Assembly (NCBI RefSeq): GCF_002735925.1
Contig: NZ_PEDL01000005.1
Span: 1 to 64,000 of the forward strand
DNA from: Sporanaerobium hydrogeniformans
GTDB taxonomy: Bacteria; Bacillota; Clostridia; Lachnospirales; Cellulosilyticaceae
DNA: 64,000 nt
Direction of reading: 5' to 3'
The notes under the pieces: generated by a model
The model's database searches: none
Told to the model about the DNA's origin: nothing
What the model saw: the letters and a program-made list of their open reading frames with translations, nothing else
Shown here: positions 2,311-30,901 of the stretch, piece after piece
Position numbering within the stretch: the first letter of the stretch is position 1
How the letters are laid out: each line of letters opens with the position of its first letter
Position numbers and translations under genes: made by a program

Positions 2311-2381
2311 AAGAATAAAGATGAAAAGACAAAAGATAGAAAGTAAGGCTTCTATAAGGGAAAAACAAAGGAGGAGTTAGA

Positions 2382-3083
2382 ATGACAGAAGGATTTAAAA
2401 GACCAGGAGGAGAGATGGCGTCAAGGCCACTTCATTTTATATGGATTTTAGACTGTTCAGGCTCTATGATGGGAGAAAAAATTCAGTCTCTTAACTATGC
2501 TATTAAACAAACCATTCCAGATATGCGGGCAGCAGCAGCAGAAAATCCAAATGCTAAACTTTATGTGCGTGCCGCTAAATTTTCTGAAGGAGCAAGCTGG
2601 CATGTTGCTACGCCTACTACTATTGAGGAGTTTGAATGGTTGGATATTGAAGCAGATGGACTAACTGATATGGGTAAAGCCTTTCATTTAGTAGCAGATC
2701 AGCTAGAGATGCCGCCTATGCCAGAACGAGCCTTGCCACCTGTTTTAGTGCTTCTTTCAGATGGACAACCTACTGACTCCTATAAGGAAGGTTTAGAACG
2801 CCTTCTAAGTTTACCTTGGGGCAAAAAAGCTGTAAGGATTGCTATTGCCATAGGTAGTGATGCAGATACCACTGTATTAAAGGAATTCATTCACCAGAGT
2901 GAGATACCTGTTTTACAAGCGAATAATCCGGAGGCACTGGTAAAATATATTAAATGGGCCTCTACGGTAGCTAAACAAGTATCTAGCCCGAATAGTCGCG
3001 TTTTAACAGCTACCTCTAAAGCTAGCCCTATTGACTTAGAGGCTATTCCAGTTATAGGAGAAGAGGATAGTGATGTATGGTAA
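2382..3083 (+). CDS. VWA domain protein, TerY-like
   Basis: A 233-residue cytosolic von Willebrand factor A domain with an intact metal-ion-dependent adhesion site: DCSGS (Asp24, Ser26, Ser28), TD at 95-96, and the Asp in LLSDGQPTD near 127. The size and the flanking kinase and PP2C genes match TerY of the TerY-P triad, where the VWA protein is thought to act as a metal-dependent scaffold. There is no signal peptide or membrane segment. The ATG at 2382 follows AGGAGG. The 3' end overlaps the PP2C gene by 11 bases, indicating translational coupling. Confidence 0.85.
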   Translation: MTEGFKRPGGEMASRPLHFIWILDCSGSMMGEKIQSLNYAIKQTIPDMRAAAAENPNAKLYVRAAKFSEGASWHVATPTTIEEFEWLDIEADGLTDMGKAFHLVADQLEMPPMPERALPPVLVLLSDGQPTDSYKEGLERLLSLPWGKKAVRIAIAIGSDADTTVLKEFIHQSEIPVLQANNPEALVKYIKWASTVAKQVSSPNSRVLTATSKASPIDLEAIPVIGEEDSDVW

Positions 3084-3915
3084 TAAAGTACATATAAAGG
3101 ATTGGAAAGCTATAGGTGAATCCGTTCAAGGAGCCAGTCATTTGCGGTCAGGTAAGCCTTGTCAAGATGCTCTTTTGCTTGAGAGTCTAGAAGGACAGAA
3201 GTTGCTATGTGCTTTAGCAGATGGGCATGGAAGTGAACGCTGTAAATACAGTAAGGATGGAGCAGAACTTGGTGTAAAAGTTATACACTGGTTTTGGGAG
3301 GAGCTTTTAAAAAGCCATTCGGACTTATTTCTTTATGAGTTTTTAAGCCAAACCAAAGATATTGACTTACCTAAGGCACTGGAAAAAGAGTGGAAGCAAG
3401 CAGTAAAGGCTTTTCATCAAAAAAGTGGAAGGCAAGAGGCTGAGAGTGACCAAGAATTATGGACTTGGTATGGTTCCACCTTACTCTTTATATTAGTTAC
3501 GAAGCAACTGGTTTTTGCCATGCAATTAGGTGATGGGGATATTTTAGCAGTTTTTGAAGGAGGTGAAACCTCTTGGCTTTTGCCTTATGAAAAACAATAT
3601 GGCACAGAAACTTACTCTTTGTGTCAAAAGAATGCATGGCAGTACTTTAGAAGTTTTTTAGCACCTTTATCTTATTATACTACCAGACCACAGCTTTTTT
3701 TACTTAGTACTGACGGCTATGCTAATAGCTTTATAAGTAGTGAAGGGTTTTTACAAATAGGAGAAGATTATTTAAAGCTTTTAAAACAGAAATCTTCCCT
3801 TTATTTAGAAAGTCATTTAAGGGAATGGCTAGAGGAAGCTACCCGTTGTGGAAGTGGAGATGATATTACTGTAGCAGTGATTTATACTACCGAGCTTGAG
3901 AAAGGAGGATGCTAA
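3073..3915 (+). CDS. PP2C-family serine/threonine phosphatase of the TerY-P triad
   Basis: About 280 residues with the PP2C metal-site motifs in order: QDA near 32, ADGHGSE near 50, LGDGDIL near 155, STDGYAN near 217 and GSGDDITVA near the C-terminus. All the acidic residues that bind the dinuclear Mn/Mg centre are present, so it should be active. It probably reverses phosphorylation by the kinase two genes upstream. A GTG at 3070 lies immediately before the ATG at 3073; the ATG is preferred because AGAGGA sits at a better distance. The stop codon overlaps the next start as TAATG. Confidence 0.87.
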   Translation: MYGNKVHIKDWKAIGESVQGASHLRSGKPCQDALLLESLEGQKLLCALADGHGSERCKYSKDGAELGVKVIHWFWEELLKSHSDLFLYEFLSQTKDIDLPKALEKEWKQAVKAFHQKSGRQEAESDQELWTWYGSTLLFILVTKQLVFAMQLGDGDILAVFEGGETSWLLPYEKQYGTETYSLCQKNAWQYFRSFLAPLSYYTTRPQLFLLSTDGYANSFISSEGFLQIGEDYLKLLKQKSSLYLESHLREWLEEATRCGSGDDITVAVIYTTELEKGGC

Positions 3916-4985
3916 TGCGTAAAAAAATCATTCGTCAAATCCTTTTTTTGAAAAATACTTATGGGGAAGAGTTGTTGCAAGATAAAAAGCGCCTCATGGC
4001 CTTTGTGAGAGATTACTTTCCTTTTGCCAAATGGGAACATCAACTTTTGCAGCTTGGCCTGGCAAGTGATATTTATGGACAACTAAAAGGTTGTGATATT
4101 CATACCTGTATGCTAAAACGCAATGAGTGTATCTGCCTTTTGCAAAAGGAGCAAGGCTGTGAACGGCGTTTGGCAGAAGAAGCTGTTGATTTATGGATGA
4201 GTCTTATTAAAAAAGAAAAAAATATAGATACTGCCTTTAGTGAGGATAAGCCTTTGGTACAAAAGTTAGGAGAAGCTTCTGGTAAACAACAAGAAAAGCT
4301 GATGCTTTCTGAAAAGGCTGAGGCTATCTTGAGGCGTGGAGATGCTTTTTATAGTGGTGAAGGTATACGCCAAAGCTATAAGGAAGCTCTGAAGACTTAT
4401 GAAGAGGCAGCTAGTTTAGGTAGTGTGGCCGCTATGAAGTATTTAGGGAATATGTATTATATAGGACAGGGTGTTGGGCAGGATTATGAGAGAGCACTTT
4501 TTTGGTATAAGGAGGCAGCTAGTCAAGGAAGTGCCACAGCAATGAATTATTTAGGAAATATGTACCATGAAGGAAAAGGAACAACTGCTCAGCAAGAAAA
4601 GGCATTACAGTGGTATCAGCGAGCTGTAGCTTTAGGCAACTATACTGCTATGTTTAATATCGGGTATTTGCAACATGAAAAGCATCTTCAAAAAGAGCAA
4701 CAATCCTTTGAATGGTACGAAAAAAAAGCCCAGCTAGGAAATAAAGAGGCTATTTATCATTTAGCGTATTTATATCATACAGGAGATGGTGTGGAACAAG
4801 ATTACGAAAAAGCTATGAAGTGGTATAGGAAGCTAGCAGAGGATGGTTATACGTATGCAATGATTTGGATTGCCTATATGTATCTCAATGGGCAAGGGGT
4901 AGAAAAAGATTATCATGAGGCGATGAGCTGGTGTGCCAAAGCAGCTCAGTTCTTAGAGCCACTAGAGAATAAAAGAGATTGTTAG
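3915..4985 (+). CDS. Sel1-repeat protein, fourth gene of the kinase/VWA/PP2C operon
   Basis: About 356 residues. The N-terminal 130 residues are a charged helical region that I do not recognise confidently. From about residue 145 there are five to six Sel1-like repeats of roughly 36 residues with the pattern A-x-x-x-Y-x-x-A-A-x-x-G-x-x-x-A-x-x-x-L-G-x-x-Y-x-x-G-x-G (for example YLGNMYYIGQGV and YLGNMYHEGKGT). Such solenoids mediate protein-protein contacts, so it may supply substrate or adaptor specificity to the triad. The ATG at 3915 has AAAGGAGG six bases upstream; an ATG two codons earlier lies too close to that site. A terminator overlaps the stop codon. Confidence 0.8.
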   Translation: MRKKIIRQILFLKNTYGEELLQDKKRLMAFVRDYFPFAKWEHQLLQLGLASDIYGQLKGCDIHTCMLKRNECICLLQKEQGCERRLAEEAVDLWMSLIKKEKNIDTAFSEDKPLVQKLGEASGKQQEKLMLSEKAEAILRRGDAFYSGEGIRQSYKEALKTYEEAASLGSVAAMKYLGNMYYIGQGVGQDYERALFWYKEAASQGSATAMNYLGNMYHEGKGTTAQQEKALQWYQRAVALGNYTAMFNIGYLQHEKHLQKEQQSFEWYEKKAQLGNKEAIYHLAYLYHTGDGVEQDYEKAMKWYRKLAEDGYTYAMIWIAYMYLNGQGVEKDYHEAMSWCAKAAQFLEPLENKRDC

Positions 4986-8314: not shown

Positions 8315-9370
8315 ATGCCTTTTATGAAACAAAATCTAGCAGGTCTTGAAGCCTATAAAGCCCCTTATATCACAACAGGGATTAAATTAGATGCCAATGA
8401 AAACACACACCCTATCCCACAAGCTTTACGTGACCATATGAGAGAATGGGTAGATTCGATGCTCATTTCTCTTTATCCAGACACCAATAGTATAGCACTT
8501 TGTGAAGCCCTTGCAAGGAACTATGAGGTGCCTAGTGATTGGGTGGTTTGCGGAGTGGGTTCAGATCAACTTATTGATTACCTTTTACGTGCTGTATTAA
8601 AGGAAGGAGATAAGGTATTAGCTCCTGGTCCTTCCTTTAGTATGTATCGTCAAAGCACCTTTATTAATGGAGGGCAGCTTATAGAAGTGCCTTTAGCATC
8701 TGATTTTAGTTATGATGTGCCAGCCTTTTTAGAAGGCATCCGTAAGGAACAGCCTCAACTCATCTTTATTTGCAATCCCAATAATCCAACGGGGTGTGCC
8801 TTAACCAATGAAGAGATGGAACGTATTGTAACGAGTACCTCCGCTCTTGTTATTATTGATGAGGCGTATGGAGAGTTTTTAGGAGAAACAGCTATACCAC
8901 TGGTTAAAAAATACAGCAATTTAATTGTTTTAAAGACTTTTTCAAAAGCTTATTCTTTAGCAGGTGCTCGTGTGGGGTATGGTGTGGCTCAGGCGCCTCT
9001 TATTACTATGATTAATAAAATAAGGCCACCTTTTAATCTTAATATTTTTGCGCAAGAAGTAGCTCTTTGGGTCATTACTCATCAAGAAGCTTTTGCACCT
9101 TCTATTGCGGCTATTGTGAGTGAAAGAGAGAGATTAATTAAAGCCTTAAAGGAACTAGGGTTAACAGTTTATAACTCTAAAGCCAACTTCCTTTGGGTAG
9201 AAACCCCTCTTGCTTTGGATGAAATCCTAACAAAGGAAGAGATATTTATTAAGAAGATGGGGTATAATGGCAAGCCTTATTTCCGTATAAGCATTGGGAC
9301 ACCCAAAGAAAATACACTACTTATAAATGTTTTAAAAAAGGAGGCGAGAGTATGCGCACAGCAAGCTTAA
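8315..9370 (+). CDS. hisC: Histidinol-phosphate aminotransferase (HisC)
   Basis: A PLP-dependent fold-type I aminotransferase of 351 residues that converts imidazole-acetol phosphate to histidinol phosphate. The N-terminal KLDANENTHP, the PNNPTG motif, the YGEF segment and the PLP-lysine motif KTFSKAYSLAGARVGY are all present. It starts one base after hisD ends, and its 3' end overlaps hisB by 19 bases. Confidence 0.95.
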   Translation: MPFMKQNLAGLEAYKAPYITTGIKLDANENTHPIPQALRDHMREWVDSMLISLYPDTNSIALCEALARNYEVPSDWVVCGVGSDQLIDYLLRAVLKEGDKVLAPGPSFSMYRQSTFINGGQLIEVPLASDFSYDVPAFLEGIRKEQPQLIFICNPNNPTGCALTNEEMERIVTSTSALVIIDEAYGEFLGETAIPLVKKYSNLIVLKTFSKAYSLAGARVGYGVAQAPLITMINKIRPPFNLNIFAQEVALWVITHQEAFAPSIAAIVSERERLIKALKELGLTVYNSKANFLWVETPLALDEILTKEEIFIKKMGYNGKPYFRISIGTPKENTLLINVLKKEARVCAQQA

Positions 9371-9942
9371 AACGAAGTACAGCAGAAACGACTATTGAAA
9401 TAAGTTTAACGATTGATGGAGAAGGCAAAACCCAGGTTGATACAGGGATTGGTTTCTTTGACCATATGCTTACCCATATTGGTAAACACTCTTTAAGTGA
9501 TTTAAAGGTAGAAGCCAAGGGTGATTTAGAGGTGGATTGTCATCATACTGTAGAAGATACAGGGATTGTTTTAGGAGAAGTTTTAAAGATAGCTCTTGGT
9601 AACAAAGAAGGCATTACCCGTTATGGGCATGCTATTATCCCTATGGAAGAAGCCCTTATTCTTTGTGCGGTAGACATTTCAGGACGTCCTTATGTGGATA
9701 TTGAGGCGCCTTTTACAGTAACTAGGGTAGGTGACTTTGATACGGAGATGGTAGAGGAATTCTTTCGTGCTGTAGCCATTCACGCAGGACTTAATCTCCA
9801 TATTCAAGTTTTAAAAGGAAAGAATAATCACCATATTATTGAAGGAATGTGCAAGGCTTTTGCTAAAGCCATGCTAGATGCTATGAGTCTCCATCCAAGA
9901 GTTAAAGGTGTGCCTTCAACAAAGGGCATCTTGGAGGTATAG
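9352..9942 (+). CDS. hisB: Imidazoleglycerol-phosphate dehydratase (HisB)
   Basis: A monofunctional 196-residue IGP dehydratase without the phosphatase domain found in enterobacterial HisB. The two manganese-binding repeats are visible: FFDHMLTHIGKH with DCHHTVEDTG, and HHIIEGMCKAFAKA. The ATG lies inside hisC and has AAAAGGAGG upstream. A separate histidinol-phosphate phosphatase is therefore needed; none is inside the his operon. Confidence 0.96.
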   Translation: MRTASLKRSTAETTIEISLTIDGEGKTQVDTGIGFFDHMLTHIGKHSLSDLKVEAKGDLEVDCHHTVEDTGIVLGEVLKIALGNKEGITRYGHAIIPMEEALILCAVDISGRPYVDIEAPFTVTRVGDFDTEMVEEFFRAVAIHAGLNLHIQVLKGKNNHHIIEGMCKAFAKAMLDAMSLHPRVKGVPSTKGILEV

Positions 9943-19585: not shown

Positions 19586-19936
19586 ATGAAAATGAAAAAG
19601 GTACAAGAAATTTTAGAGGCCCATATTTGGGCAGGAGAAGAGGACTTAGAAGGAGAAGTGTATGCAGCATGTGGTTGCGACCTTATGAGTGATGTGTTAG
19701 CTTTTGCTAAAGAAAAGGTACTTCTACTTACGGGACTTGTTAATCCTCAAGTGATTCGAACAGCGGAAATGTTAGATATCCGAGCTATTGTATTTGTGAG
19801 AGGTAAAGAGCCCTCTAAAGAAATGATTGAAATGGCAAATCATAAAGGTATGATTATTTTATCCACACAAGAACCACTTTATATGGCTTGTGGCAAACTT
19901 TATGCAGCAGGATTAATGTGTGAAAGTGAGGATTAA
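19586..19936 (+). CDS. DRTGG domain protein
   Basis: A 116-residue stand-alone DRTGG domain, a fold found in regulatory parts of phosphotransacetylases and CBS proteins. The characteristic pattern GCDLMSDVLAFAKEKVLLLTG followed by a strand pair (IRAIVFVRGKEP) is visible. Two such genes in this operon flank an RsbW-like ATPase and a hydrogenase-like sensor, as in other clostridial hydrogenase loci. The ligand is unknown. Confidence 0.8.
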   Translation: MKMKKVQEILEAHIWAGEEDLEGEVYAACGCDLMSDVLAFAKEKVLLLTGLVNPQVIRTAEMLDIRAIVFVRGKEPSKEMIEMANHKGMIILSTQEPLYMACGKLYAAGLMCESED

Positions 19937-19937
19937 G

Positions 19938-20351
19938 ATGAAGTTACATTATGAAGTAGATGGGGATAATTTTTTAGTAGCAGGAGAAGCTTCTGGTGCA
20001 GTGAAGCGTACCTTGAAACAAATTGGCATAGATGCAGCCATAATAAGGAAAATTGCAATTTCCATGTATGAAGCAGAAATGAACATGGTGATTCATGCCG
20101 ATGGAGGAGAAATTGATGTAGAGATTACCTCTGAAAAAGTGAAGATTGTGTTAAAGGATAGAGGACCTGGTATCCCTAATATAGATTTAGCGATGAAAGA
20201 AGGATACTCTACTGCTTCCCATGAGATTAGGGAACTAGGCTTTGGGGCAGGGATGGGGCTGCCTAATATGAAGAAGTACAGTGATGACTTAAAGATTACA
20301 TCTGAGGTAGGCGTGGGGACTACAGTACAGTTAGTTGTTTTTTTGCACTAG
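19938..20351 (+). CDS. RsbW-like ATP-binding protein (anti-sigma-factor-type GHKL ATPase)
   Basis: A 137-residue GHKL ATPase without a sensor or dimerisation domain. The N-box is YEAEMNMVIHA, the G1 box LKDRGPGIPN and the G2 box GFGAGMGLPNMKKYSD. RsbW/SpoIIAB-type proteins of this size phosphorylate a partner Ser/Thr protein or bind a sigma factor. No STAS or sigma gene is adjacent; DRTGG proteins are the neighbours. The ATG at 19938 has GAGG six bases upstream; an upstream GTG overlaps the previous gene. A SpoIIE-type phosphatase in the same region could be its opponent. Confidence 0.82.
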   Translation: MKLHYEVDGDNFLVAGEASGAVKRTLKQIGIDAAIIRKIAISMYEAEMNMVIHADGGEIDVEITSEKVKIVLKDRGPGIPNIDLAMKEGYSTASHEIRELGFGAGMGLPNMKKYSDDLKITSEVGVGTTVQLVVFLH

Positions 20352-20391
20352 ATAAAGAGTAAAAAAGGAAGCTAAGAGAGGAGGAATGCAG

Positions 20392-21696
20392 ATGTATAGC
20401 CATTCTGTAAGATTAGAAAAGGAAAAATGTATTGGATGTACAGATTGCATTAAACGTTGCCCAACAGAAGCTATACGCGTAAGAGGGTCTAAGGCTCAAA
20501 TTATAGAGGAGCGTTGTATTGATTGTGGAAACTGTATTCGTATATGTCGCAATGGTGCCAAGAAGGCGGTGACGGACGATTGGCGTATGCTAGGTCGATT
20601 TAAACATCGTGTTGCCTTACCTGCACCTTCTTTTTATGCTCAATTTCCTAAAGCTAAAAGTATTGAGCACATCTTAAATGCCTTATATGCCATTGGTTTT
20701 ACAGATGTATTAGAGGTAGGTGCAGCGGGTGAGGTGATAGCAGAAAAAACCTATGCATGGTTAGAAGAAGCCACACATTTTCCTGTTATTTCATCTTCAT
20801 GCCCAGCTATTGTAAGGCTTATTCAGCGGCGGTTTCCATCTCTTATTCACCAAGTACTTCCTATTATCTCACCTATGGAACTAGCAGCCAGATATGTAAG
20901 GGAATGTTATAAGAAGCAAGGGGCTTCTAGAGAAGAGGTAGGGATTTTCTTTCTTTCACCTTGTCCTGCTAAAGCTACGGAGATAAGGCGCCCTAAAGGA
21001 ATTAAGGAGTCCGAAGTAGATGGAGTTATTGGGATGCAGGATATTTATAAAAAAGTACTTCCTTATTTAAATAGTGAGGGAGTAGATAAGATTATACGTC
21101 AAACCAGCTTAGAAGGATTAAAGTGGGCAAGGCGAACAGGTGGATTAAATGAAGTACGTTTAAAGAGTCATTTATCTGTTGACGGGATGGACAATGTTAT
21201 TGGAATTTTAGAAAAGGTTGAAGATGGGACACTGACAGAAGTACATTATATAGAAGCTTTAGCTTGTACAGGAGGTTGTTTAGGGGGAGCATTGACCGTG
21301 GAAAATCCTTTTGTAAGCCGCTGTTATCTTCAAAAATGGATGGAGCAAGATAAGAAAGAAAAAAGAGTACAAAATACGGAGTTATTAGAAGATATAGCTA
21401 AAATGCCTGTGAGATATGAAAAGAGTATTGTGCCACGACCAGTATTTTCGTTAGATCATGATACGCAAAAAGCTATAGAGAAAATGCAAGCTATTGAGGA
21501 GCTTTATACTCAATTACCTCAAATTGATTGTGGTTCTTGTGGAGCACCCACTTGTCGTTGCTTTGCAGAAGATGTGGTACGTCATAATGCTCAAATTGAA
21601 GAATGTATTTTTATGTTTAGGAAGAAAGTGAAGGAGCTTTCCGAAAATATGCATGAGCTTACACAAACAACTCTTCCTACAGCAGATGAAAATTAA
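20392..21696 (+). CDS. Hydrogenase-like Fe-S protein: 2x[4Fe-4S], H-domain, C-terminal [4Fe-4S]
   Basis: About 434 residues. The N-terminal ferredoxin has two CxxCxxCxxxC motifs (CIGCTDCIKRC and CIDCGNCIRIC). A [FeFe]-hydrogenase large-subunit-like H-domain follows, with L1 SSSCPAIV, L2 SPCPAKATE and L3 ACTGGCLGG, then a C-terminal Fes cluster (CGSCGAPTCRCFAED). The four Cys that would ligate the H-cluster are present, but the proton-relay Cys of L1 is Ser. It resembles HydS-type putative redox/H2 sensors rather than a catalytic hydrogenase. The ATG at 20392 fits GGAGG seven bases upstream better than the ATG two codons earlier. Confidence 0.82.
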   Translation: MYSHSVRLEKEKCIGCTDCIKRCPTEAIRVRGSKAQIIEERCIDCGNCIRICRNGAKKAVTDDWRMLGRFKHRVALPAPSFYAQFPKAKSIEHILNALYAIGFTDVLEVGAAGEVIAEKTYAWLEEATHFPVISSSCPAIVRLIQRRFPSLIHQVLPIISPMELAARYVRECYKKQGASREEVGIFFLSPCPAKATEIRRPKGIKESEVDGVIGMQDIYKKVLPYLNSEGVDKIIRQTSLEGLKWARRTGGLNEVRLKSHLSVDGMDNVIGILEKVEDGTLTEVHYIEALACTGGCLGGALTVENPFVSRCYLQKWMEQDKKEKRVQNTELLEDIAKMPVRYEKSIVPRPVFSLDHDTQKAIEKMQAIEELYTQLPQIDCGSCGAPTCRCFAEDVVRHNAQIEECIFMFRKKVKELSENMHELTQTTLPTADEN

Positions 21697-21712
21697 AAGG
21701 AGGTTACGGAAA

Positions 21713-22045
21713 ATGACTGTGGAGTATATAGTAAATACATTAAAAGTAGAGGTAATAGCAGGTAAAGAAGGGCTTTCTAATGAAGTAAGTGGAGGATATA
21801 CAGGTGATTTATTAAGCTTTGTCATGTCTCATGCGAAAGAAAAAAATATATGGCTTACCATTCAGGGGCACATTAATTCGGTAGCAGTTGCTAGCTTGCT
21901 TGGACTCTCAGCTATTGTTCTTACAGAAGGGGTAGAAGCTGATCAAGAGATGCTAGATAAGGCTAATGAGGAAGGTATCCCTATTTTAAAAACCCTCTTT
22001 AATAGTTTTGATTTTGCTGTAAAGCTAGCACAAATAGAAGGCTAG
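21713..22045 (+). CDS. Second DRTGG domain protein
   Basis: A 110-residue DRTGG domain, the paralogue of the protein at 19586-19936. It has GGYTGDLLSFVMSHAKEKNIWLTI followed by strands containing LSAIVLTEGVE. The ATG at 21713 is chosen because AAAGGAGG lies upstream; the frame is open earlier inside the preceding gene. It probably works with the H-domain protein immediately upstream; the ligand is unknown. Confidence 0.8.
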   Translation: MTVEYIVNTLKVEVIAGKEGLSNEVSGGYTGDLLSFVMSHAKEKNIWLTIQGHINSVAVASLLGLSAIVLTEGVEADQEMLDKANEEGIPILKTLFNSFDFAVKLAQIEG

Positions 22046-22053
22046 GTGAGTTT

Positions 22054-22761
22054 ATGAAGCTAGCCTACGACTTCCATATTCACACCGCAGCCTCACCTTG
22101 TGGTGATCAGTGGATGTCTCCACATAATATTGTTAATATGGCACTTTTGAATGGTTTAGATGCCATTGCTATTACCGATCATAACACCTGTGCTAATTGT
22201 GCTTCAGTTATGAAAGTAGGCAGAGCAAAGGGCCTTCTTGTCATCCCAGGAATGGAAATTGAGTGCCAGGAGGAGTTTCACACAATAGCCCTCTTTCCAA
22301 GCTTAGAAGCAGCTTATGAAGTGGAACGAAGTGTTAAAGAAGGGTTGCCTTCTCTTAAAAATCGTATTGATATTTTTGGCAATCAGTGGAAACTAGACGA
22401 GGAAGACGAAATAGTAGGTGAGATTGATCAGTTTTTATTAACAGCTACATCACTTACTGCACAAGAAGTTTTTAGAAAAGTACGCGAAGTAGGTGGTATT
22501 ATTTATCCTGCTCATATTGATAGACAGAGTTATAGTATCCTCTCTAATTTAGGTTTTATTCCACCAGAATTAGGAGTAAATGCTATAGAAATATCAAAGG
22601 GAGCTCCTAAAGAAGTATATGAAAGGAATTATATAAATTACCAATTATTGCAGTCTTCCGATGCACATTATTTACAAGATATCTCAGAAAGAAGGCACTT
22701 TTTGTCGGCAGAAGCATGTACAATTTATGAAATCTTCAAGGTTATAGACAAAAAAACTTAA
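22054..22761 (+). CDS. PHP-domain phosphoesterase
   Basis: A 235-residue PHP metal-dependent phosphoesterase. Metal ligands are visible in DFHIHTAASPCGDQ (HxH), ITDHNTC, the Glu of GMEIECQEEFH, and SSDAHYL near the C-terminus. It could hydrolyse a phosphorylated small molecule or nucleic acid. As the last gene of the sensor operon, eight bases after the DRTGG gene, a role in second-messenger turnover is possible but is inference. No terminator is seen before the hydrogenase promoter. Confidence 0.85.
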   Translation: MKLAYDFHIHTAASPCGDQWMSPHNIVNMALLNGLDAIAITDHNTCANCASVMKVGRAKGLLVIPGMEIECQEEFHTIALFPSLEAAYEVERSVKEGLPSLKNRIDIFGNQWKLDEEDEIVGEIDQFLLTATSLTAQEVFRKVREVGGIIYPAHIDRQSYSILSNLGFIPPELGVNAIEISKGAPKEVYERNYINYQLLQSSDAHYLQDISERRHFLSAEACTIYEIFKVIDKKT

Positions 22762-22947: not shown

Positions 22948-23436
22948 ATGTCATGTGAAAGCTGCACAAATGAACTGACAAAGAGCCTGTATTTGGAACT
23001 TGAAAAGTTCATCAATGAACTACCAGAAAAAAGAGGGGCACTCATTTCTGTACTTCATAAAGCCCAATCATTATTTGGTTACTTACCAAAGGAAGTACAA
23101 GTATTTGTAGGGAAGAAATTAGGGGTACCTGTTTCTCAAGTTTATGGTGTAGTCAGTTTTTATTCTTTCTTTACTATGCTTCCAAAAGGAGAACATCCCA
23201 TTTCTGTTTGTCTTGGGACAGCTTGCTATGTAAGAGGTGCAGATAAAGTATTAGATGCCTTCAAGAAAGAGTTAGGTATTGAAATAGGAGAGACAACACC
23301 AGATGGTAAGTTCTCATTGGATGCTTTAAGATGCGTAGGTGCTTGTGGGCTTGCTCCAGTTGTCTTAATTGGAGACAAAGTATATGGACGTATTAACACT
23401 GCAGATGAAGTTAGAAAAATTCTTAGCGAATATTAA
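22948..23436 (+). CDS. hydC: Electron-bifurcating hydrogenase subunit HydC (NuoE-like [2Fe-2S])
   Basis: A 162-residue NuoE-family thioredoxin-fold subunit. The four [2Fe-2S] Cys are in the pattern CLGTACYVRG and RCVGACGLAP. The N-terminal helix bundle includes KAQSLFGYLPKEVQ. In complex with the NuoF- and HydA-like subunits it belongs to the NAD(H)- and ferredoxin-linked (bifurcating) [FeFe] hydrogenase. First gene of the operon, preceded by AAGGAGG. Confidence 0.92.
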   Translation: MSCESCTNELTKSLYLELEKFINELPEKRGALISVLHKAQSLFGYLPKEVQVFVGKKLGVPVSQVYGVVSFYSFFTMLPKGEHPISVCLGTACYVRGADKVLDAFKKELGIEIGETTPDGKFSLDALRCVGACGLAPVVLIGDKVYGRINTADEVRKILSEY

Positions 23437-23454
23437 AATAGAGGAGGATTACCT

Positions 23455-23853
23455 ATGCCTAAGATCATGTCTTTAGATGAATTAAAAGCTCTTAGAGATA
23501 ATGTGAAAAATAAAGTAGATTTACGTATAAAAGGCGAAAACGTAGATAAAATGGTCGTTGTACGTGTGGCTATGGCAACATGTGGGATTGCTGCTGGAGC
23601 AAGAGAGATTATGAATACTTTTGCTGATATGGTAAGAGAGCATGACCTTGATTATGTCATGATTACACAAAGTGGTTGTATGGGATATTGCTATGCAGAA
23701 CCTACTGTAGAAGTAACACTTCCAGGTCAAGAGCCTGTTGTATATGGTCATGTAACAAAAGAAAAAGCAAAAGAAATTTTAGAAAAACATATCCAAGGTG
23801 GGGAAATGGTAGATGGTATTATTCCAGTTGCTCACAAATCATTAGATGAGTAG
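23455..23853 (+). CDS. Thioredoxin-like [2Fe-2S] ferredoxin of the hydrogenase operon
   Basis: A 132-residue thioredoxin-like ferredoxin. The cluster Cys lie in ATCGIAAGARE and QSGCMGYCYAEP. Such small proteins are encoded between hydC and hydB in many Clostridia and Thermoanaerobacterium-type hydrogenase operons. They correspond in fold to the N-terminal domain of HydB, so this may be an extra electron-transfer subunit. Confidence 0.85.
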   Translation: MPKIMSLDELKALRDNVKNKVDLRIKGENVDKMVVVRVAMATCGIAAGAREIMNTFADMVREHDLDYVMITQSGCMGYCYAEPTVEVTLPGQEPVVYGHVTKEKAKEILEKHIQGGEMVDGIIPVAHKSLDE

Positions 23854-23864
23854 GAGGCCTGTCA

Positions 23865-25652
23865 ATGTCAAAATATAATATGCACATTTTAGTTTGTGGA
23901 GGTACAGGGTGTCTTTCTTCACAATCTAATTTAATTGTGGAAAATTTAGAACGTTACATAAAAGAAGCCAATATGGAAAATCAGGTACAAGTTTTAAAGA
24001 CAGGTTGTTTTGGTTTTTGTGAAAAAGGACCTATTGTTAAGATTCTTCCAGATAATACTTTCTATGTACAAGTTAAACCAGAAGATGTAGAAGAGTTAGT
24101 AAAAGAACATGTGATTAAGGGACGTCGTGTAGATCGCCTTCTTTACCAAGATCCAACAACAAGTGAACATGTCGAAGATTCTAAACATATGGATTTCTAT
24201 AAAAAACAACAACGTGTAGCTCTTCGTAATTGTGGGTTCATTGATCCAGACAATATTGAAGAATATATTGCAAGAGACGGCTATGCTGCTCTCGGTATGG
24301 CACTTAGTATGTCTACACAAGAAGTTATTGATGAAGTGAAAAAATCAGGTCTTCGTGGACGTGGGGGTGGTGGTTTCCCAACAGGACTTAAATGGGAATT
24401 TGCCTCTAAAAATGCAGCTGATCAAAAATATGTGGTATGTAACGCAGATGAAGGGGACCCAGGTGCATTCATGGACCGCTCTATCTTAGAGGGAGATCCA
24501 CACTCTATCGTAGAGGCGATGGCAATTTGTGGTTATGCTATTGGTGCCACAAAAGGTCTTGTGTATATTCGTGCAGAATATCCTTTAGCAGTAAACCGTT
24601 TACAAACAGCTATTCGTTCTGCAAGGGAATATGGTTTGTTAGGTAAAAATATTTTAGGAACAGATTTTGAATTTGATATTGAAATTAAATTTGGTGCAGG
24701 TGCCTTTGTATGTGGAGAAGAAACAGCACTTATTCATTCGATGGAAGGTATGAGAGGTGAACCTACTACGAAACCTCCATTCCCAGCGGCAAGTGGTTAT
24801 TGGGGAAAACCAACCAATGTAAATAATGTTGAAACCCTTGCTAATATACCTGTTATTTTCCTAAAAGGAGCAGATTGGTTTGCTTCTATCGGAACAGAAA
24901 AATCAAAAGGTACAAAAGTATTTGCTTTAGCAGGTAAAATTAATAATGTGGGTCTTATTGAAGTACCAATGGGTACAACTTTGAGAGAAGTTATTTATGA
25001 TATCGGTGGTGGTATCAAAGATGGTAAGAAATTTAAAGCAGTACAAACAGGTGGACCATCTGGTGGCTGCTTAACAGAAGAAGACTTAGATACACCTATT
25101 GACTTTGATAACCTTATAGCAAAAGGCTCTATGATGGGGTCTGGTGGTATGATTGTTATGGATGAAGATGACTGTATGCCTGCAGTTGCTAAATTCTACT
25201 TAGAGTTTACAGAAGAGGAATCTTGTGGTAAATGTACTCCTTGTCGTATAGGAACAAAGAGACTTTCTGAGATTTTAAGCAAAATTGTATCAGGTAAAGG
25301 AACAGAAGAAGATCTTGAGATACTTAAAGAGCTTAGTCAAGTAATTAGGGATACAGCACTTTGTGGTTTAGGCCAAACTGCTCCAAATCCTGTTCTTTCT
25401 ACACTTAATAAATTTGAAGATGAGTATATCGCTCACGTACGGGAGAAGAGATGTCCAGCTGGTCAATGTAGTGCACTTTTACAATACAAAATTACAGATA
25501 AATGTATTGGCTGTACAGCCTGTGCAAGAGTCTGTCCTGTTAATGCTATTACAGGAGCTGTTAAGGCAAAACATACGATTGATCAAGAAAAATGTATTAA
25601 GTGTGGCGCTTGTATGGAAAAATGTAAGTTTAAAGCCATTGTAAAAGAATAG
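23865..25652 (+). CDS. hydB: Electron-bifurcating hydrogenase subunit HydB (NuoF-like, FMN/NAD-binding)
   Basis: A 595-residue flavoprotein subunit. Residues 1-90 are a [2Fe-2S] thioredoxin-like domain (CGGTGCLSSQ, KTGCFGFCEKGP). The NuoF core follows: NAD/FMN loop GLRGRGGGGFPTGLKWEF, CNADEGDPGAFMDR, and the [4Fe-4S] motif ESCGKCTPCRIGT. The C-terminus carries two ferredoxin-type clusters (CIGCTACARVC and CIKCGACMEKC). This is the NAD(H) site and probable flavin bifurcation site of the complex. Confidence 0.94.
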   Translation: MSKYNMHILVCGGTGCLSSQSNLIVENLERYIKEANMENQVQVLKTGCFGFCEKGPIVKILPDNTFYVQVKPEDVEELVKEHVIKGRRVDRLLYQDPTTSEHVEDSKHMDFYKKQQRVALRNCGFIDPDNIEEYIARDGYAALGMALSMSTQEVIDEVKKSGLRGRGGGGFPTGLKWEFASKNAADQKYVVCNADEGDPGAFMDRSILEGDPHSIVEAMAICGYAIGATKGLVYIRAEYPLAVNRLQTAIRSAREYGLLGKNILGTDFEFDIEIKFGAGAFVCGEETALIHSMEGMRGEPTTKPPFPAASGYWGKPTNVNNVETLANIPVIFLKGADWFASIGTEKSKGTKVFALAGKINNVGLIEVPMGTTLREVIYDIGGGIKDGKKFKAVQTGGPSGGCLTEEDLDTPIDFDNLIAKGSMMGSGGMIVMDEDDCMPAVAKFYLEFTEEESCGKCTPCRIGTKRLSEILSKIVSGKGTEEDLEILKELSQVIRDTALCGLGQTAPNPVLSTLNKFEDEYIAHVREKRCPAGQCSALLQYKITDKCIGCTACARVCPVNAITGAVKAKHTIDQEKCIKCGACMEKCKFKAIVKE

Positions 25653-25669
25653 GAAAGGGAGTGGAAAAT

Positions 25670-27424
25670 ATGTCAGAAATTAAAATTACAATCGATGGCA
25701 CCGACGTGATGGTTGCACCAGGTGCAACAATATTAGATGCTGCTAAGAAAATAGGTGTACATATCCCTACTCTTTGCCATTTAGATTTACATGATACAAA
25801 AATGGTGAATCAAGGTGCTTCATGTAGAATATGTGTTGTAGAAGTAGAAGGACGTAGAAATTTAGCGCCTGCTTGTGCAACGCCTGTTACAGACGGAATG
25901 ATCGTTAATACGCGTTCTATTAAAGTACTTCATGCTAGAAAGGTAGTACTTGAACTGCTTTTATCAGACCATCCAAAAGATTGCTTAGTATGTGAAAAAT
26001 CAGGGAATTGTGAACTCCAAGATTTAGCTATTACTTTTGGCATACGTGATATTAAAATAGGTAAAGATGGTGCACAATCCACTTATAGAAAAGATGTAAG
26101 TGAAGCCATAGTTCGTGATATGGATAAATGTATTATGTGTAGACGTTGTGAGACAATGTGTAACAAGGTGCAAGCAGTAGGTGCTTTATCAGGTGTCAAT
26201 AGAGGTTTTAATGCCGTAGTAGCACCCGCTTTTGAGGTAGACCTTATTGATTCGGTATGTACACATTGTGGACAATGCGTAGCTGTCTGTCCAACGGGCG
26301 CTCTTTGTGAAAAGGAACATATATGGAGTGTAGTGGATGCTTTAGCTGATAAAGACAAAATTGTTGTTGTGCAAACTGCACCAGCTGTTAGAGCCGCTTT
26401 AGGTGAAGAATTTGGTATGGAGCCAGGTACACTTGTAACAGGTAAAATGACAGCAGCACTTAGAAGATTAGGATTTAATTATGTATTTGATACAGATTTT
26501 GCTGCTGATGCAACGATTATGGAAGAAGGCGCTGAACTTGTTGACCGTCTAACAAGATTCCAAAATGGTGATCCAACAGTAAAACTACCTATTCTTACAA
26601 GTTGTTGTCCTGCTTGGGTAAACTTTTTTGAAAGTCAATTTCCAGATCTTTTAGATGTACCTTCAACAGCTAAATCACCTCAACAAATGTTTGGTGCTAT
26701 TGCAAAAAGTTATTTTGCTGAAAAAATGAATATTCCAAGAGAAAAAATGGTAGTTGTATCTGTTATGCCATGTTTAGCTAAAAAATATGAAGCTTCTCGT
26801 CCTGAATTTAATAGAGATGTAGATATTTCTATCTCAACAAGAGAGCTTGCACATCTTATTAAGCAAGCTAATATTGACTTTGTAAATCTCCCAGACGAAG
26901 ACTTTGATAATCCATTAGGTGAATCAACAGGTGCATCTGTTATATTTGGTACAACAGGTGGTGTTATTGAAGCTGCTGTACGTACGGCTTATGAAGTCAT
27001 TACAGGGGAGACTCTTGAAAAGGTAGATTTTGAAGAGTTAAGAGGCTTTGAAGGCATAAGAAATGCTACTGTAAAAGTAGGTAATCTAGACCTTAATATA
27101 GGTATTGCCCATGGCCTTAGTAATGCAAAAGCACTTCTTGAAGAAATCAGAAATGGTAATCCAAAGAATTTCCATGCGATTGAAATCATGGCTTGTCCAG
27201 GTGGATGTATAGGTGGAGGTGGTCAGCCTTATCACCACGGCAATAGTGAGATTCTTAAGAAACGCCAGACAGCAATTTATAATGAAGATAAGAATAAGGT
27301 TCTTCGTAAATCTCATGAAAATCCATTTATTAAAGAAATGTATAAAGATTATTTTGAAAAACCAATGAGCCATAAAGCACATAAACTTCTTCATACTTCA
27401 TATGAAGCAAAGGAAAAAATGTAA
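25670..27424 (+). CDS. hydA: [FeFe] hydrogenase catalytic subunit HydA
   Basis: A 584-residue M3-type [FeFe] hydrogenase. In order: N-terminal [2Fe-2S] ferredoxin (CHLDLH, ASCRICVVEVEG), a His-Cys3 [4Fe-4S] segment (DHPKDCLVCEKSGNCELQ), two [4Fe-4S] clusters (CIMCRRCETMC, CTHCGQCVAVC), then the H-cluster with canonical L1 TSCCPAWV, L2 MPCLAKKYE and L3 MACPGGCIGGGGQPY. All ligands and the proton-relay Cys are present, so it should produce or take up H2. A GTG at 25661 is in frame; the ATG at 25670 fits GGGAG better. A terminator follows. Confidence 0.96.
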   Translation: MSEIKITIDGTDVMVAPGATILDAAKKIGVHIPTLCHLDLHDTKMVNQGASCRICVVEVEGRRNLAPACATPVTDGMIVNTRSIKVLHARKVVLELLLSDHPKDCLVCEKSGNCELQDLAITFGIRDIKIGKDGAQSTYRKDVSEAIVRDMDKCIMCRRCETMCNKVQAVGALSGVNRGFNAVVAPAFEVDLIDSVCTHCGQCVAVCPTGALCEKEHIWSVVDALADKDKIVVVQTAPAVRAALGEEFGMEPGTLVTGKMTAALRRLGFNYVFDTDFAADATIMEEGAELVDRLTRFQNGDPTVKLPILTSCCPAWVNFFESQFPDLLDVPSTAKSPQQMFGAIAKSYFAEKMNIPREKMVVVSVMPCLAKKYEASRPEFNRDVDISISTRELAHLIKQANIDFVNLPDEDFDNPLGESTGASVIFGTTGGVIEAAVRTAYEVITGETLEKVDFEELRGFEGIRNATVKVGNLDLNIGIAHGLSNAKALLEEIRNGNPKNFHAIEIMACPGGCIGGGGQPYHHGNSEILKKRQTAIYNEDKNKVLRKSHENPFIKEMYKDYFEKPMSHKAHKLLHTSYEAKEKM

Positions 27425-27500: not shown

Positions 27501-27769
27501 ATTTGAACAATAAGTTTTAATAGATTTCTACTTAATCAAACTTATAGTTAGCTTTTGACAAGAAAGAACTGATTCATTAAAGATATAAGTAAACTGCTAA
27601 AAGTTATGAAAGGAATAAAGGGAGGATAGATGAATTTAAAAGAAAAGCAAAGTAAGAAGGGATAAAAAAAAGTCAAGAAAATAAGAAATCATTTGATTGA
27701 CTAAAAAATAACAATGGAGTATGCTAGATTGAGAGAAGCAAATGAGGTTCTAGTAAAGGAGTGGGGAAA
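27501..27769 (+). promoter_or_regulatory. Long intergenic region with two candidate promoters before the second sensor operon
   Basis: The 345-base gap after hydA holds a terminator, then two promoter-like pairs. One is TTGACA (27555-27560) with a weak TAAAGA at 17 bases. The better one is TTGACT (27697-27702) with TATGCT (27720-27725) at exactly 17 bases. Between them lies a tiny open frame with a strong ribosome binding site (27630-27665). I see no perfect Rex site here. Confidence 0.45.
27630..27665 (+). CDS. Possible 11-residue leader peptide (speculative)
   Basis: An ATG with AAAGGGAGG correctly spaced upstream begins the frame MNLKEKQSKKG and stops at TAA. The frame is far too short to judge by codon use. 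A chance occurrence is possible, but the ribosome binding site is better than that of many real genes nearby. Confidence 0.2.
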   Translation: MNLKEKQSKKG

Positions 27770-28015
27770 ATGAAGGTTGTTAAAATTTGTATTGGAAGTG
27801 CTTGTCATCTCAAAGGCTCCTATCATGTAATAGAGGCTTTTAAGGGATTGATTGAAGAATATAAGCTTGAAGAAGAAATAGAATTAAGTGCTGCTTTTTG
27901 TGTAGGAAAATGTACTGAAGCAGTATCTGTTGTGAGATGGGATGGTGAAGTGCTATCCGTTACCAAAGCTAATGCAAGAGAGATATTTATTAACCAAATT
28001 GTTGCCTATCTTTAA
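27770..28015 (+). CDS. Small NuoE-like [2Fe-2S] thioredoxin-fold protein
   Basis: An 81-residue protein equal to the C-terminal [2Fe-2S] domain of NuoE/HydC. The Cys pattern is CIGSACHLKGS and FCVGKCTEAVSV. It has lost the N-terminal helical domain. It probably delivers electrons to, or senses redox state with, the H-domain/PAS protein 13 bases downstream. The ATG at 27770 is favoured over the GTG at 27761 by the GGAG spacing. Confidence 0.8.
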   Translation: MKVVKICIGSACHLKGSYHVIEAFKGLIEEYKLEEEIELSAAFCVGKCTEAVSVVRWDGEVLSVTKANAREIFINQIVAYL

Positions 28016-28028
28016 GGAGTGACTACCT

Positions 28029-29744
28029 ATGTGGATTATTAATTTTTCAGAAGCAGATTGTAAAAATTGTTATGCTTGTGTAAGAGCCTGTCCAGTACAT
28101 GCTATTGAAGTAAAAGCAGAACAAGCTCAAATTATGAAGGAAAGGTGTATCGGTTGTGGCAGATGTCTCAAGGCATGTCCTAAAAATGCCAAGCAAGTAA
28201 AGCCTGAATTAGAAAGCGTAAAAGAATATGTGAAAAGACCTGGAAAGGTTGTAGCTACTGTAGCACCTACTTATGTGGGTGTGTTTGGCGAAAATGCAAG
28301 TAAGCTTAGCACAGCTCTTAAAATGCTAGGTTTTGATGCAGTAGAGGAGACAGTAGTAGGTGCTGACTTTGTAACCGAGCAATATGAAGCTTATGCCCAA
28401 AAAGAGGATGATGCTTGTTATATTACAAGTTGTTGTTCTTCAGTAGTTTATTTGATTGAAAAGCATCACCCTAAACTTATCCCTCATTTAATTCCAGTGG
28501 TTTCACCTGTTGTGTGTCATGCTAGAATGTTAAAGCAAACTTATGGTACAACTAGCAAGGTAGTTTTCATTGGTCCATGTCTTTCTAAAAAGATAGAAGG
28601 CCATGAGGAAGAAAGTATAGATGCCGTACTTACTTTTGATGAATTAGAAAAGTGGCTAGCAGAAGAAAATATTCATTTAAATGATTTAACTAAAAGTGCT
28701 TTTGACCAAACCAATAGTAAACAGGCCTTTTACCCACTTGTAGGGGGAGCTACTAAAACGGTTAAACAAGAGGGACTTAAAAAGCAAATTATCCCTGTAG
28801 ATGGTGTAGAGGAATGTAAGGAAGTACTAAAAGCTATAGAAGAAGGAAGCCTTAAAAACATTCTCTTCGAAATGAATTGTTGTAGACATAGCTGTGTAGG
28901 TGGTCCAGGACTTTCAGAAGATGGTAGAAGCGTTTATGAACGTAAAGAATGGATTAAGAAATATGTAAAAGAGCAACAAAAGCAAGGTGAAGGATGTAAA
29001 CAGACAGATATGAGAGCTATAAAAGGCTTAGAGATAGGACGCCGTTTTGAGCCACTTTATGTACCACTTAAAAAACCTAAAGAAGGACAAATACGTGAGA
29101 TTTTGGGAAGTATTGGTAAGTATACCGAAAATGATGAACTTAATTGTGGAAGCTGTGGTTACCCTACTTGTCGAGATAAAGCTATTGCTGTTTTTAATGG
29201 TATGGCAGAACCCAATATGTGTTTGCCTTTTATGCGTCAAAAAGCAGAAACTTTAAGTAATGTTATTTTTGATGCGACACCCAATCTCATTATTATTGTA
29301 AATAAAGAATTAGAAATTATAGACTTAAATCCTTCAGCTGCTCAATTCTTTCATACAACAAAGGAAAGTATGATCGATCTACCTATTGAGATTTTATTGG
29401 ATACCGATATTTTTATGCAGGTAAAAGAAGCTAAACGTAATGTGGTTAGTCAAAAAAAGATAGTTAAAAATACACAATCTACAGTTATTCAAAGTGTGAT
29501 TTGGATTGAATATCATCAGGTGATGCTTTGGATTGCACATGATATCAGCCGAGATGAAAAATTAGAAAAGCGTCTTCAGACCATGAAAATTGATGCGATT
29601 AATATGGCACAACAAGTTATTAATAAGCAGATGACAGTAGCTCAAGAAATTGCAAGTCTTTTAGGGGAGACCACTGCAGAGACCAAGGTAACGCTAACTC
29701 AACTTAAACATTTGATTCAAACAGAAGAGGACGTGAAACCATGA
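28029..29744 (+). CDS. HydS-like sensor: ferredoxin, hydrogenase H-domain, Fes cluster and PAS domain
   Basis: A 571-residue protein. Two [4Fe-4S] motifs (CKNCYACVRAC, CIGCGRCLKAC) lead into an H-domain with L1 TSCCSSVVYL, L2 GPCLSKKIE and L3 NCCRHSCVGG. A Fes cluster (CGSCGYPTCRDKA) and a PAS domain from about residue 410 (FDATPNLIIIVNKELEIIDLN) follow, then a helical tail. The H-cluster Cys ligands are kept while the surrounding residues differ from HydA, as in HydS-type proteins proposed to sense H2 or redox state. It overlaps the SpoIIE-type phosphatase gene by four bases (ATGA), suggesting that PAS output controls the phosphatase. Confidence 0.86.
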   Translation: MWIINFSEADCKNCYACVRACPVHAIEVKAEQAQIMKERCIGCGRCLKACPKNAKQVKPELESVKEYVKRPGKVVATVAPTYVGVFGENASKLSTALKMLGFDAVEETVVGADFVTEQYEAYAQKEDDACYITSCCSSVVYLIEKHHPKLIPHLIPVVSPVVCHARMLKQTYGTTSKVVFIGPCLSKKIEGHEEESIDAVLTFDELEKWLAEENIHLNDLTKSAFDQTNSKQAFYPLVGGATKTVKQEGLKKQIIPVDGVEECKEVLKAIEEGSLKNILFEMNCCRHSCVGGPGLSEDGRSVYERKEWIKKYVKEQQKQGEGCKQTDMRAIKGLEIGRRFEPLYVPLKKPKEGQIREILGSIGKYTENDELNCGSCGYPTCRDKAIAVFNGMAEPNMCLPFMRQKAETLSNVIFDATPNLIIIVNKELEIIDLNPSAAQFFHTTKESMIDLPIEILLDTDIFMQVKEAKRNVVSQKKIVKNTQSTVIQSVIWIEYHQVMLWIAHDISRDEKLEKRLQTMKIDAINMAQQVINKQMTVAQEIASLLGETTAETKVTLTQLKHLIQTEEDVKP

Positions 29745-30901
29745 AATTCTTTATAGATTTTGCAACAGGGAGTTTAAATAAACAAGGTGAAGAATTATGT
29801 GGAGATAAAGTGGAATTTGTACAAGAGGAAGAGAGTTTTATAGCTGTTCTTTCTGATGGATTAGGAAGTGGCGTGAAGGCAAATATTTTAGCTACTTTAA
29901 CGGCTAAAATTGCCATTACAATGCTTAAAGAGGGACTATCTATTGAAGAGGTTGTAGATACCATTATTCATACTCTACCGGTATGCTCAGTACGTAAATT
30001 AGCTTATTCGACCTTTACCATTATTAAAGTTAATAAAGAAGGTATGGTGTATGTAGTAGAGTTTGATAATCCAAGTGTGTTTTTTCTTAGAAACAATCAA
30101 GTGATTCCTCTTGATACAACAGTGAAGGAGATTAACGGACGTCAAATCAAAGAGAGTCAATTTGAATTACAGGAAAAAGATATTCTTGTTTTTGTCAGTG
30201 ATGGAGTGATCCATGCAGGAGCCGGTATGATTTTAAATTTAGGTTGGAGCTGGAAAGAAGTGGCAAATTACTTGCAGACAGTCACAGACCGAGAAACAAC
30301 AGCCAAGATGGTAACTAATCTTTTGTTAGGGGTTTGTGAGGATCTTTATATCAAACGTCCAGGAGATGATACAACAGTAGCAGCTATTAAAGCCATTACG
30401 CCAAAGAAAGCTACTTTACTTTCAGGCCCACCTGTTGATAAAAATAGGGATAAAGAGATGATTAGTCATTTAATGCATACTATCGGGAAAAAAATTGTAT
30501 GTGGTGGAACAGCTGCTAATATGGTTGCACGGGAGTTAGGAACAGAGATTAAAACGAGTTTTGAGATGCCTGATCCCAATATCCCACCTATTGGCTACAT
30601 ACGAGGAATTGATTTGGTAACTGAGGGAATCTTAACTTTAAAAGGAGCGGTAGAACGATTAGAAAGAGTAAAGGTATCTAAAGAGCTGGATTTTCTTTAT
30701 GCAGGTGATGGTGCCTCTCAGCTAGCACGTATCCTTTTTGAAGACTGTACACATATTAAAATGCTTATAGGAAGGGCTATTAACCCAGCTCATCAGAATC
30801 CGGATTTTCCTAATGAATTAAGTATTAAACTTCATGTGTTGCATCGATTAGAGCAAGTTTTAATCAGCTTGGGAAAAATTGTAGAAGTAGAATATTACTA
30901 A
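29741..30901 (+). CDS. SpoIIE-family PP2C phosphatase
   Basis: A 386-residue protein. Residues 1-220 are a PPM/SpoIIE phosphatase: GDKVEFV, SDGLGSGVKAN, VFVSDGVIHAG and RPGDDTTVAAIKA carry the metal ligands. Residues of about 225-386 form an additional C-terminal domain found in hydrogenase-associated members (VCGGTAANMVARELG, GYIRGIDLVTEGILTL); its function is unknown to me. It should dephosphorylate a partner in a switch controlled by the upstream PAS/H-domain sensor. The transcription unit ends at a terminator. Confidence 0.88.
   Translation: MKFFIDFATGSLNKQGEELCGDKVEFVQEEESFIAVLSDGLGSGVKANILATLTAKIAITMLKEGLSIEEVVDTIIHTLPVCSVRKLAYSTFTIIKVNKEGMVYVVEFDNPSVFFLRNNQVIPLDTTVKEINGRQIKESQFELQEKDILVFVSDGVIHAGAGMILNLGWSWKEVANYLQTVTDRETTAKMVTNLLLGVCEDLYIKRPGDDTTVAAIKAITPKKATLLSGPPVDKNRDKEMISHLMHTIGKKIVCGGTAANMVARELGTEIKTSFEMPDPNIPPIGYIRGIDLVTEGILTLKGAVERLERVKVSKELDFLYAGDGASQLARILFEDCTHIKMLIGRAINPAHQNPDFPNELSIKLHVLHRLEQVLISLGKIVEVEYY

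Follow-up and report, generated by a model that had tools for sequence, protein, structure and literature searches.

The window analysed here is a stretch of 64,000 nucleotides from Sporanaerobium hydrogeniformans (contig NZ_PEDL01000005.1, positions 1 to 64,000), and the sensor-phosphatase pair and its hydrogenase-related neighbours described below lie on its forward strand. The two genes under study are an ORF of 571 aa at 28029..29744, identified by Pfam matches and by its pairing with the following gene as a HydS-type sensory [FeFe] H-domain protein similar to HfsB and to HydDB group C3, and an ORF of 386 aa at 29741..30901 encoding a SpoIIE-type PPM phosphatase similar to HfsC. The first-pass annotation had described the two genes as overlapping by four bases, which is correct: the phosphatase starts at 29741, and the ATGA at 29741..29744 is common to both ORFs as stop and start. 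An overlap of exactly four bases recurs in 27 of 88 relatives in the order-wide set and 17 of 77 in the named-genome set described below. Upstream of the sensor, at 27761..28015, is a gene for its small thioredoxin-like [2Fe-2S] partner protein (PF01257, E=2.4e-6), preceded at 22948..27424 by genes of an NADH-linked [FeFe]-hydrogenase, i.e., NuoE (22948), a 2Fe-2S protein (23455), NuoF (23865), these three names being assigned by eye from the ORFs, and HydA (25661-27424), which belongs to group A6 (NF040763, 892 bits against a cut-off of 765). This gene set is possibly co-regulated with the sensor-phosphatase pair. A further neighbouring block at 19920..22761 comprises an HATPase (19920), HydS1 (20386), a DRTGG protein (21653) and a PHP protein (22054). 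The sensor under study had been called the second of its kind, and there is indeed another sensory-type H-domain protein at 20386-21696, by eye without a PAS domain; the whole genome has five H-domain matches, and in the ORF list of the window none follows the pair.

The sensor begins with a 2x[4Fe-4S] ferredoxin domain (residues 5-54, 28041..28190; Fer4-type Pfam matches), whose cysteines 11, 14, 17, 21, 40, 43, 46 and 50 are invariant or nearly so in sensor alignments A1 and A4. It continues with the H-domain (residues 73-293, 28245..28907; Fe_hyd_lg_C, PF02906, E=4.3e-54), a C-terminal four-Cys FeS domain (residues 371-400, 29139..29228; PF04060, E=5.2e-11), whose four cysteines are all present in 84 of 84 sensors, and a PAS domain at residues ~413-507 (29265..29549). 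The PAS assignment rests on Pfam PAS-family matches, among which PAS_8 (residues 413-456) exceeds its cut-off with 24.7 against 21.8 bits and the remaining models stay under theirs. The PAS domain does not follow the H-domain directly, as had been proposed, because Pfam places a linker of ~75 residues and the four-Cys FeS domain between the two. The order of H-domain, Fe-S domain and PAS is that given for group C enzymes (PMC13104023, PMC8163306). Membership in group D (TamHydS-like [FeFe] proteins), which is characterized by having no PAS, was considered and rejected since the window sensor has one. Four H-cluster cysteines, a C-terminal Fe-S domain with PAS and a linked phosphatase gene are among the features of HydDB group C3; all are found here, and by its anatomy the pairing itself is a member of this described class.

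The H-cluster motifs of the window sensor are TSCC (L1), GPC (L2) and NCCRHSC (L3). In the alignment of 175 sensors, all have Cys at the ligand positions 136, 184 and 285, and 173 have it at 289. The contrast drawn earlier between an L3 of NCCRHSCVGG and one of ACPGGCIGG holds, the former being found in the sensor (residues 283-292, 28875..28904) and the latter in the neighbouring catalytic HydA. The extra cysteine of this motif is likewise present, as Cys284, but the weight placed on it is unsupported: it is restricted to one lineage, occurring in three of the 175 aligned sensors (the window's, L036 and L038), whereas 96 sensors have Ala there and the others vary. We consequently rejected Cys284 as a functional feature, and the idea that the unusual L3 marks new H-cluster chemistry, for which the added cysteine and the loss of the CPGGC pattern could be cited, appears very improbable. 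By our own reading, we take positions 135, 182 and 284 to be equivalent to C299, M353 and position 498 of CpI. Position 135 is Cys in 125 of the 175 sensors, including the window's (within L1 TSCC), and position 182 is Gly in 168. These two positions bear on the alternative that the main role of the H-domain protein is that of a slow hydrogenase or an electron valve and not of a sensor. A Cys at the C299 position, reported in 17% of sensory sequences, would suit such a role, but Gly at the Met353 position is shared with about half (~51%) of sensory sequences (PMC10055695), and the PAS domain, the conserved tail described below and the adjacent phosphatase also point away from it, leaving this alternative improbable.

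The phosphatase consists of two parts. Residues 1-221 (29741..30403) form a PPM/SpoIIE catalytic domain, in which SpoIIE (PF07228) matches residues 31-217 with E=6.9e-16, no Pfam match being found beyond these. Residues 22, 39, 154, 209 and 210 are Asp in all 175 aligned phosphatases. The AlphaFold model of the protein has a mean pLDDT of 88.7, and its residues 1-221 match 3pu9 (Z 24.8, rmsd 2.8, 219 residues aligned) and the SpoIIE structure 5ucg (Z 23.8, rmsd 2.8, 214 aligned). Profile, catalytic Asp residues and PPM fold together place the protein in the PF07228 family. It was rejected as the sporulation protein SpoIIE itself, as it scores 40.3 bits with the equivalog model TIGR02865 where 490.8 are required. 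Within the catalytic domain, helices 44-63 and 68-78 (29870..29974), which we propose by position and by analogy with RsbU to be the PPM switch helices alpha1 and alpha2, are a candidate contact for the sensor tail, suggested by the secondary structure of the model and by covariation. Residues 222-386 (30404..30898), modelled with pLDDT 92.5 when folded alone, are predicted to be a Rossmann-like domain, which we leave unnamed: the window member has no Pfam match and no Foldseek match at E<=0.001 in this part, and the best VIA match (6s6y_F, Z 9.1, rmsd 2.9, 113 aligned) is too weak for naming. The next VIA matches, to a formylmethanofuran dehydrogenase subunit and complex I subunit G (Z 8.5), are also weak, as is the one match from phmmer, to a phosphoheptose isomerase (E=0.014).

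In order to find how regularly the two genes occur together, we used the C-terminal part of the phosphatase as the query against 295 genomes from the order. It was found in 88 of them, the window's own genome counted, and every listed match outside that genome gave one region, 92 in all, except that a copy broken in two was represented by its first piece. HydS lies directly upstream of the phosphatase in 88 of the 92, with two of these 88 pairs gapped by 105 and 1,057 bases (the latter at L081). Two of the four exceptions are phosphatases cut at a contig end (L093 and L118), one is an intact phosphatase beside other neighbours (L054), and the last, L122, has a phosphatase in pieces behind other hydrogenase-cluster genes and no HydS2 (9007-9730, oriented by the phosphatase); from this locus it seems that sensor and phosphatase decay together. 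A second set from named genomes, comprising the best 80 of at least 551 confirmed matches and biased to tail-bearing sensors because its search patterns were taken from the tail as well as the Fe-S domain, has the phosphatase following the sensor in 77 of the 80, two of the rest being contig ends and the third, L186, having the phosphatase ~3.3 kb from the sensor. A third set consists of the 21 weakest tail matches; the phosphatase is next door in all 20 loci fetched from these, and at the twenty-first (L259) the ORF after the sensor was judged SpoIIE-like by eye. The order-wide, named-genome and weak-tail sets overlap in part (e.g., L078/L154 and L068/L161). The pairing of sensor and phosphatase is near-obligate and more than chance.

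At two loci (L146 and L159) HydS is present in two tandem copies, the second of which is followed by the only phosphatase; the first of the two at L146 was used in the paired alignment. At L207 (9891-11098) the phosphatase match is split into two ORFs of 309 and 87 aa beside a full-length HydS. Fusions were looked for as ORFs with matches to sensor and phosphatase alike, and none was found across the order-wide, named-genome and weak-tail regions; the 175-pair set is filtered by length and therefore could not contain one. One candidate fusion, a 972-aa open frame read through a stop (G387:C22), was rejected as an ordinary pair of two ORFs.

What distinguishes the sensors of these pairs is their C-terminal end. 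Residues 528-561 (29610..29711) form a conserved helix, predicted from the sequence, with the consensus KQMxVAQEIASLLGETTAETK. This tail is the most conserved of the seven sensor regions compared: in a set of 98 sequences retained for being <70% identical, its mean pairwise identity is 0.66, compared to 0.57 for the FeS domain, 0.52 for the ferredoxin domain, 0.38 for the H-domain, 0.28 for PAS, 0.27 for the residues just before the tail and 0.22 for the linker. With a tail HMM, every one of the 175 paired sensors reaches 60 bits or more (98 of them being its training set), and the 193 matches of this HMM at E<=1 among the 9,428 ORFs in the regions retrieved are all labelled HydS. As a control, 398 genomes of the phylum were searched with sensor residues 1-424, and among the matches listed 20 loci were picked by eye for having no prior tail match, a non-exhaustive choice. 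Three of these 20 sensors do have a tail, of divergent sequence (40.9-52.7 bits), and all three have a phosphatase next door. The other 17 are without a tail (one reaching 3.2 bits) and without a match to the phosphatase HMM in the 6-12 kb fetched. Pfam was applied to ten of the 17 and identified a sigma-54 AAA+ domain in seven and a histidine kinase in two, with neither in the tenth; as nine of the ten thus carry a fused output, the tail occupies the place of a fused output in the paired sensors. New here is this conserved sensor tail travelling with the phosphatase, a candidate output element; among the matches listed in a search of the open-licence PMC literature, we found no paper title describing the HydS tail in such a role.

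The controls include some further protein types. L239 and L240 encode sensory H-domain proteins of 574-575 aa that lack the tail and have no phosphatase match in their vicinity; L239 is also without a Pfam PAS match, which leaves its C-terminal part unassigned. At seven loci (L243, L244, L246, L251, L253, L256 and L257) a sensory-type H-domain, an Fe-S domain and sigma-54 AAA+ are found in one protein, the ORF at L243 ending inside the sigma-54 AAA+ domain. PAS was matched in L246 and L257, and six of the seven match an HTH model too, L246 below the cut-off. From their domain content such proteins are possible one-component H2-responsive activators. The sigma-54 output is not named in the HydDB group C list consulted here (PMC5037454), and no title among the matches listed describes it.

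If the tail contacts the phosphatase, the two would be expected to vary together. In the 98 sequences, pairwise distances in the tail correlate with those in the phosphatase domain with r=0.87 (partial correlation 0.72), compared to 0.51 for PAS and 0.45 for the H-domain. Without the seven most divergent sequences (91 left), windows in the tail reach 0.70 versus at most 0.53 for windows wholly outside it, and the partial Mantel correlation of tail and phosphatase is 0.65, while the highest value among 500 shufflings of the labels, a lenient null, is 0.23. The case does not rest on this mirror-tree lead because it is much smaller within subsets: the tail has r=0.66 versus 0.65 for PAS in the order set alone, 0.66 versus 0.68 for the H-domain in the named set and 0.82 versus 0.83 for the H-domain in the weak-tail set. 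Rank correlations place the tail ahead in the order set (0.62 versus at most 0.54) and the named set (0.59 versus at most 0.49) and do not favour it in the weak-tail set (0.67 versus 0.79). A scan by mutual information assigns five of the top 100 inter-protein pairs to the tail and phosphatase residues 41-82 (0.9 expected) and 17 to the tail overall (9.6 expected), the largest class being the H-domain with the phosphatase C-terminal domain (25, with 18.1 expected). The covariation of tail and phosphatase is mostly between clades, and its reading as a contact is suggestive.

Other genes of the neighbourhood were considered for a part in signalling. A homologue of the small [2Fe-2S] protein is found upstream in 66 of the 92 order-wide regions (E<=1e-5) and an H-domain ORF downstream of the pair in 52. 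With both searches of 295 genomes taken as the same draw and a match threshold of E<=1e-10, the HATPase of the cluster and the phosphatase are both present in 33 genomes, the HATPase only in 34, the phosphatase only in 55 and neither in 173. Their co-occurrence in 33 genomes compares to 20 expected (odds ratio 3.05). This enrichment, together with the frequent [2Fe-2S] protein, is what would be expected if the phosphatase were merely co-transcribed and HydS signalled otherwise, e.g., by passing electrons to the small [2Fe-2S] partner or via the HATPase/DRTGG block, but 55 of the 88 phosphatase genomes are without an HATPase match, and the tail is present in sensors paired with the phosphatase and was absent from those without it, so that we regard signalling by such another route as unlikely. 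The same 55 genomes led us to reject the HATPase as an obligate opposing kinase; it is enriched, not required, and the block of HATPase, HydS1, DRTGG and PHP proteins is not an obligate part of the sensor-phosphatase system.

Possible targets of the phosphatase were sought in the whole genome, which has two SpoIIE-family matches, the window phosphatase and a frame of 789 aa. STAS is likewise matched twice, by a frame of 551 aa and by one of 126 aa that neighbours a SpoIIAB-like HATPase. Of two matches to Hanks-type kinases, one is in the window at 1075-1686. ORFs for a Ser/Thr kinase, a vWA-like protein, a PP2C-like phosphatase and a Sel1-like protein stand in a row at 1012-4985 of the window, in what we take, by eye, to resemble a kinase-vWA-phosphatase triad. 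The genome search found no dedicated STAS substrate of the kind that partner switching calls for. The 126-aa STAS protein is probably SpoIIAA and may serve as a substrate of the phosphatase; a dedicated STAS protein is unlikely to be the phosphorylated target.

Several described systems resemble the window pair. HydDB divides group C into kinase-linked, chemotactic and phosphatase-linked (C3) subtypes, all marked putative, as is H2 sensing by C3 proteins (PMC5037454). Like C3, the window has a sensory H-domain protein beside a Ser/Thr phosphatase (PMC5037454); in the window a group A6 enzyme precedes the pair, and the H-domain ORF that is found downstream in 52 of the 92 order-wide regions is absent. 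A group C PAS sensor with a putative Ser/Thr phosphatase was described in Ruminococcus albus in 2019 (PMC6776011). Consequently, the pair is no departure from a usual HydS-histidine kinase arrangement, as had been thought, since HydDB lists a phosphatase-linked class and the R. albus pair was known. The locus in R. albus 8 (L191) has, like the window, small [2Fe-2S] proteins, HydS with the same tail and a phosphatase, plus an H-domain ORF; its HydS is 38% identical to the window sensor in the best segment, and the neighbours differ. The cluster containing the group C sensor in R. albus fell 111-fold in co-culture, which its authors link to the H2 level (PMC6776011).

A described parallel with genetic data is the hfs operon of Thermoanaerobacterium, in which HfsC, homologous to serine phosphatases, is encoded together with the PAS-bearing HydS-like HfsB (PMC11837493). 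By this description HfsB-HfsC is like the window pair, and it differs in that its operon includes hfsD, no such gene following the window pair. In T. saccharolyticum, deletion of hfsA or hfsB raised the ethanol yield ~1.8-fold and the adhE transcript two- and three-fold, deletion of hfsC or hfsD caused no significant change in adhE, and a high ethanol yield needed wild-type hfsC and hfsD (PMC5707799). These genetics fit a sensor that restrains a phosphatase branch. In T. thermosaccharolyticum, deletion of hfsABCD with over-expression of hfsD led to a high-ethanol phenotype (PMC11837493), and HfsC is therefore not strictly needed.

A mechanistic parallel is provided by RsbP and RsbU of Bacillus, where PAS or partner input reaches a PPM phosphatase via a helical linker (PMC12143880, PMC3183031). 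RsbP is a single chain and the window pair two, and, unlike for RsbP/RsbU, no dedicated STAS substrate was found in the genome of the window. An RsbP-type phosphatase, in which a single chain carries PAS, coil and PPM, was accordingly rejected as a classification, the ORFs being separate in the window. By analogy with the RsbP/RsbU linker, we infer that the C-terminal helix of the sensor acts in trans on the phosphatase.

Taken together, we consider it fairly probable that the window pair is a phosphatase-linked sensory [FeFe]-hydrogenase, C3-like by anatomy and similar to HfsB/HfsC, with the tail acting in trans on the phosphatase. The first-pass annotation had suggested a direct output from sensor to phosphatase. 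Such an output is supported by adjacency, by the tail and by the hfsB/hfsC genetics (PMC5707799, PMC11837493); a direct contact of the two proteins is a prediction. Binding of H2 or the redox state of the H-cluster would be relayed by the Fe-S domain and then PAS, reaching the C-terminal helix; this helix would contact the phosphatase in trans, most likely at the switch helices, and set its activity, such that the two proteins would act like a split RsbP (PAS-coil-phosphatase). Judging from the published genetics of the hfs operon, the sensor may restrain the phosphatase branch at low H2, and its release may tune genes for fermentation and for hydrogenases, e.g., adhE. A more specific reading, which we put forward tentatively as somewhat short of an even chance, is that the C3 tail is a dedicated and transplantable docking element on the PPM switch helices, i.e., a split RsbP with H2 as the input, where the Rossmann-like domain would provide a second input (perhaps nucleotide or redox) or substrate recognition and the target would not be a STAS protein.

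The homologous hfs operon affects ethanol yield in thermophiles of biofuel interest (PMC5707799, PMC11837493), and a related cluster responds to co-culture in a rumen bacterium, a response credited to H2 by the authors (PMC6776011). As to how sensory [FeFe]-hydrogenases relay the H2 signal, a 2026 paper notes that the C-terminal cluster had been proposed, without a test, to take part in sensing or signalling (PMC13104023). A conserved tail tied to the phosphatase offers a short segment on which binding assays and mutagenesis could be focused to learn how this relay may work.
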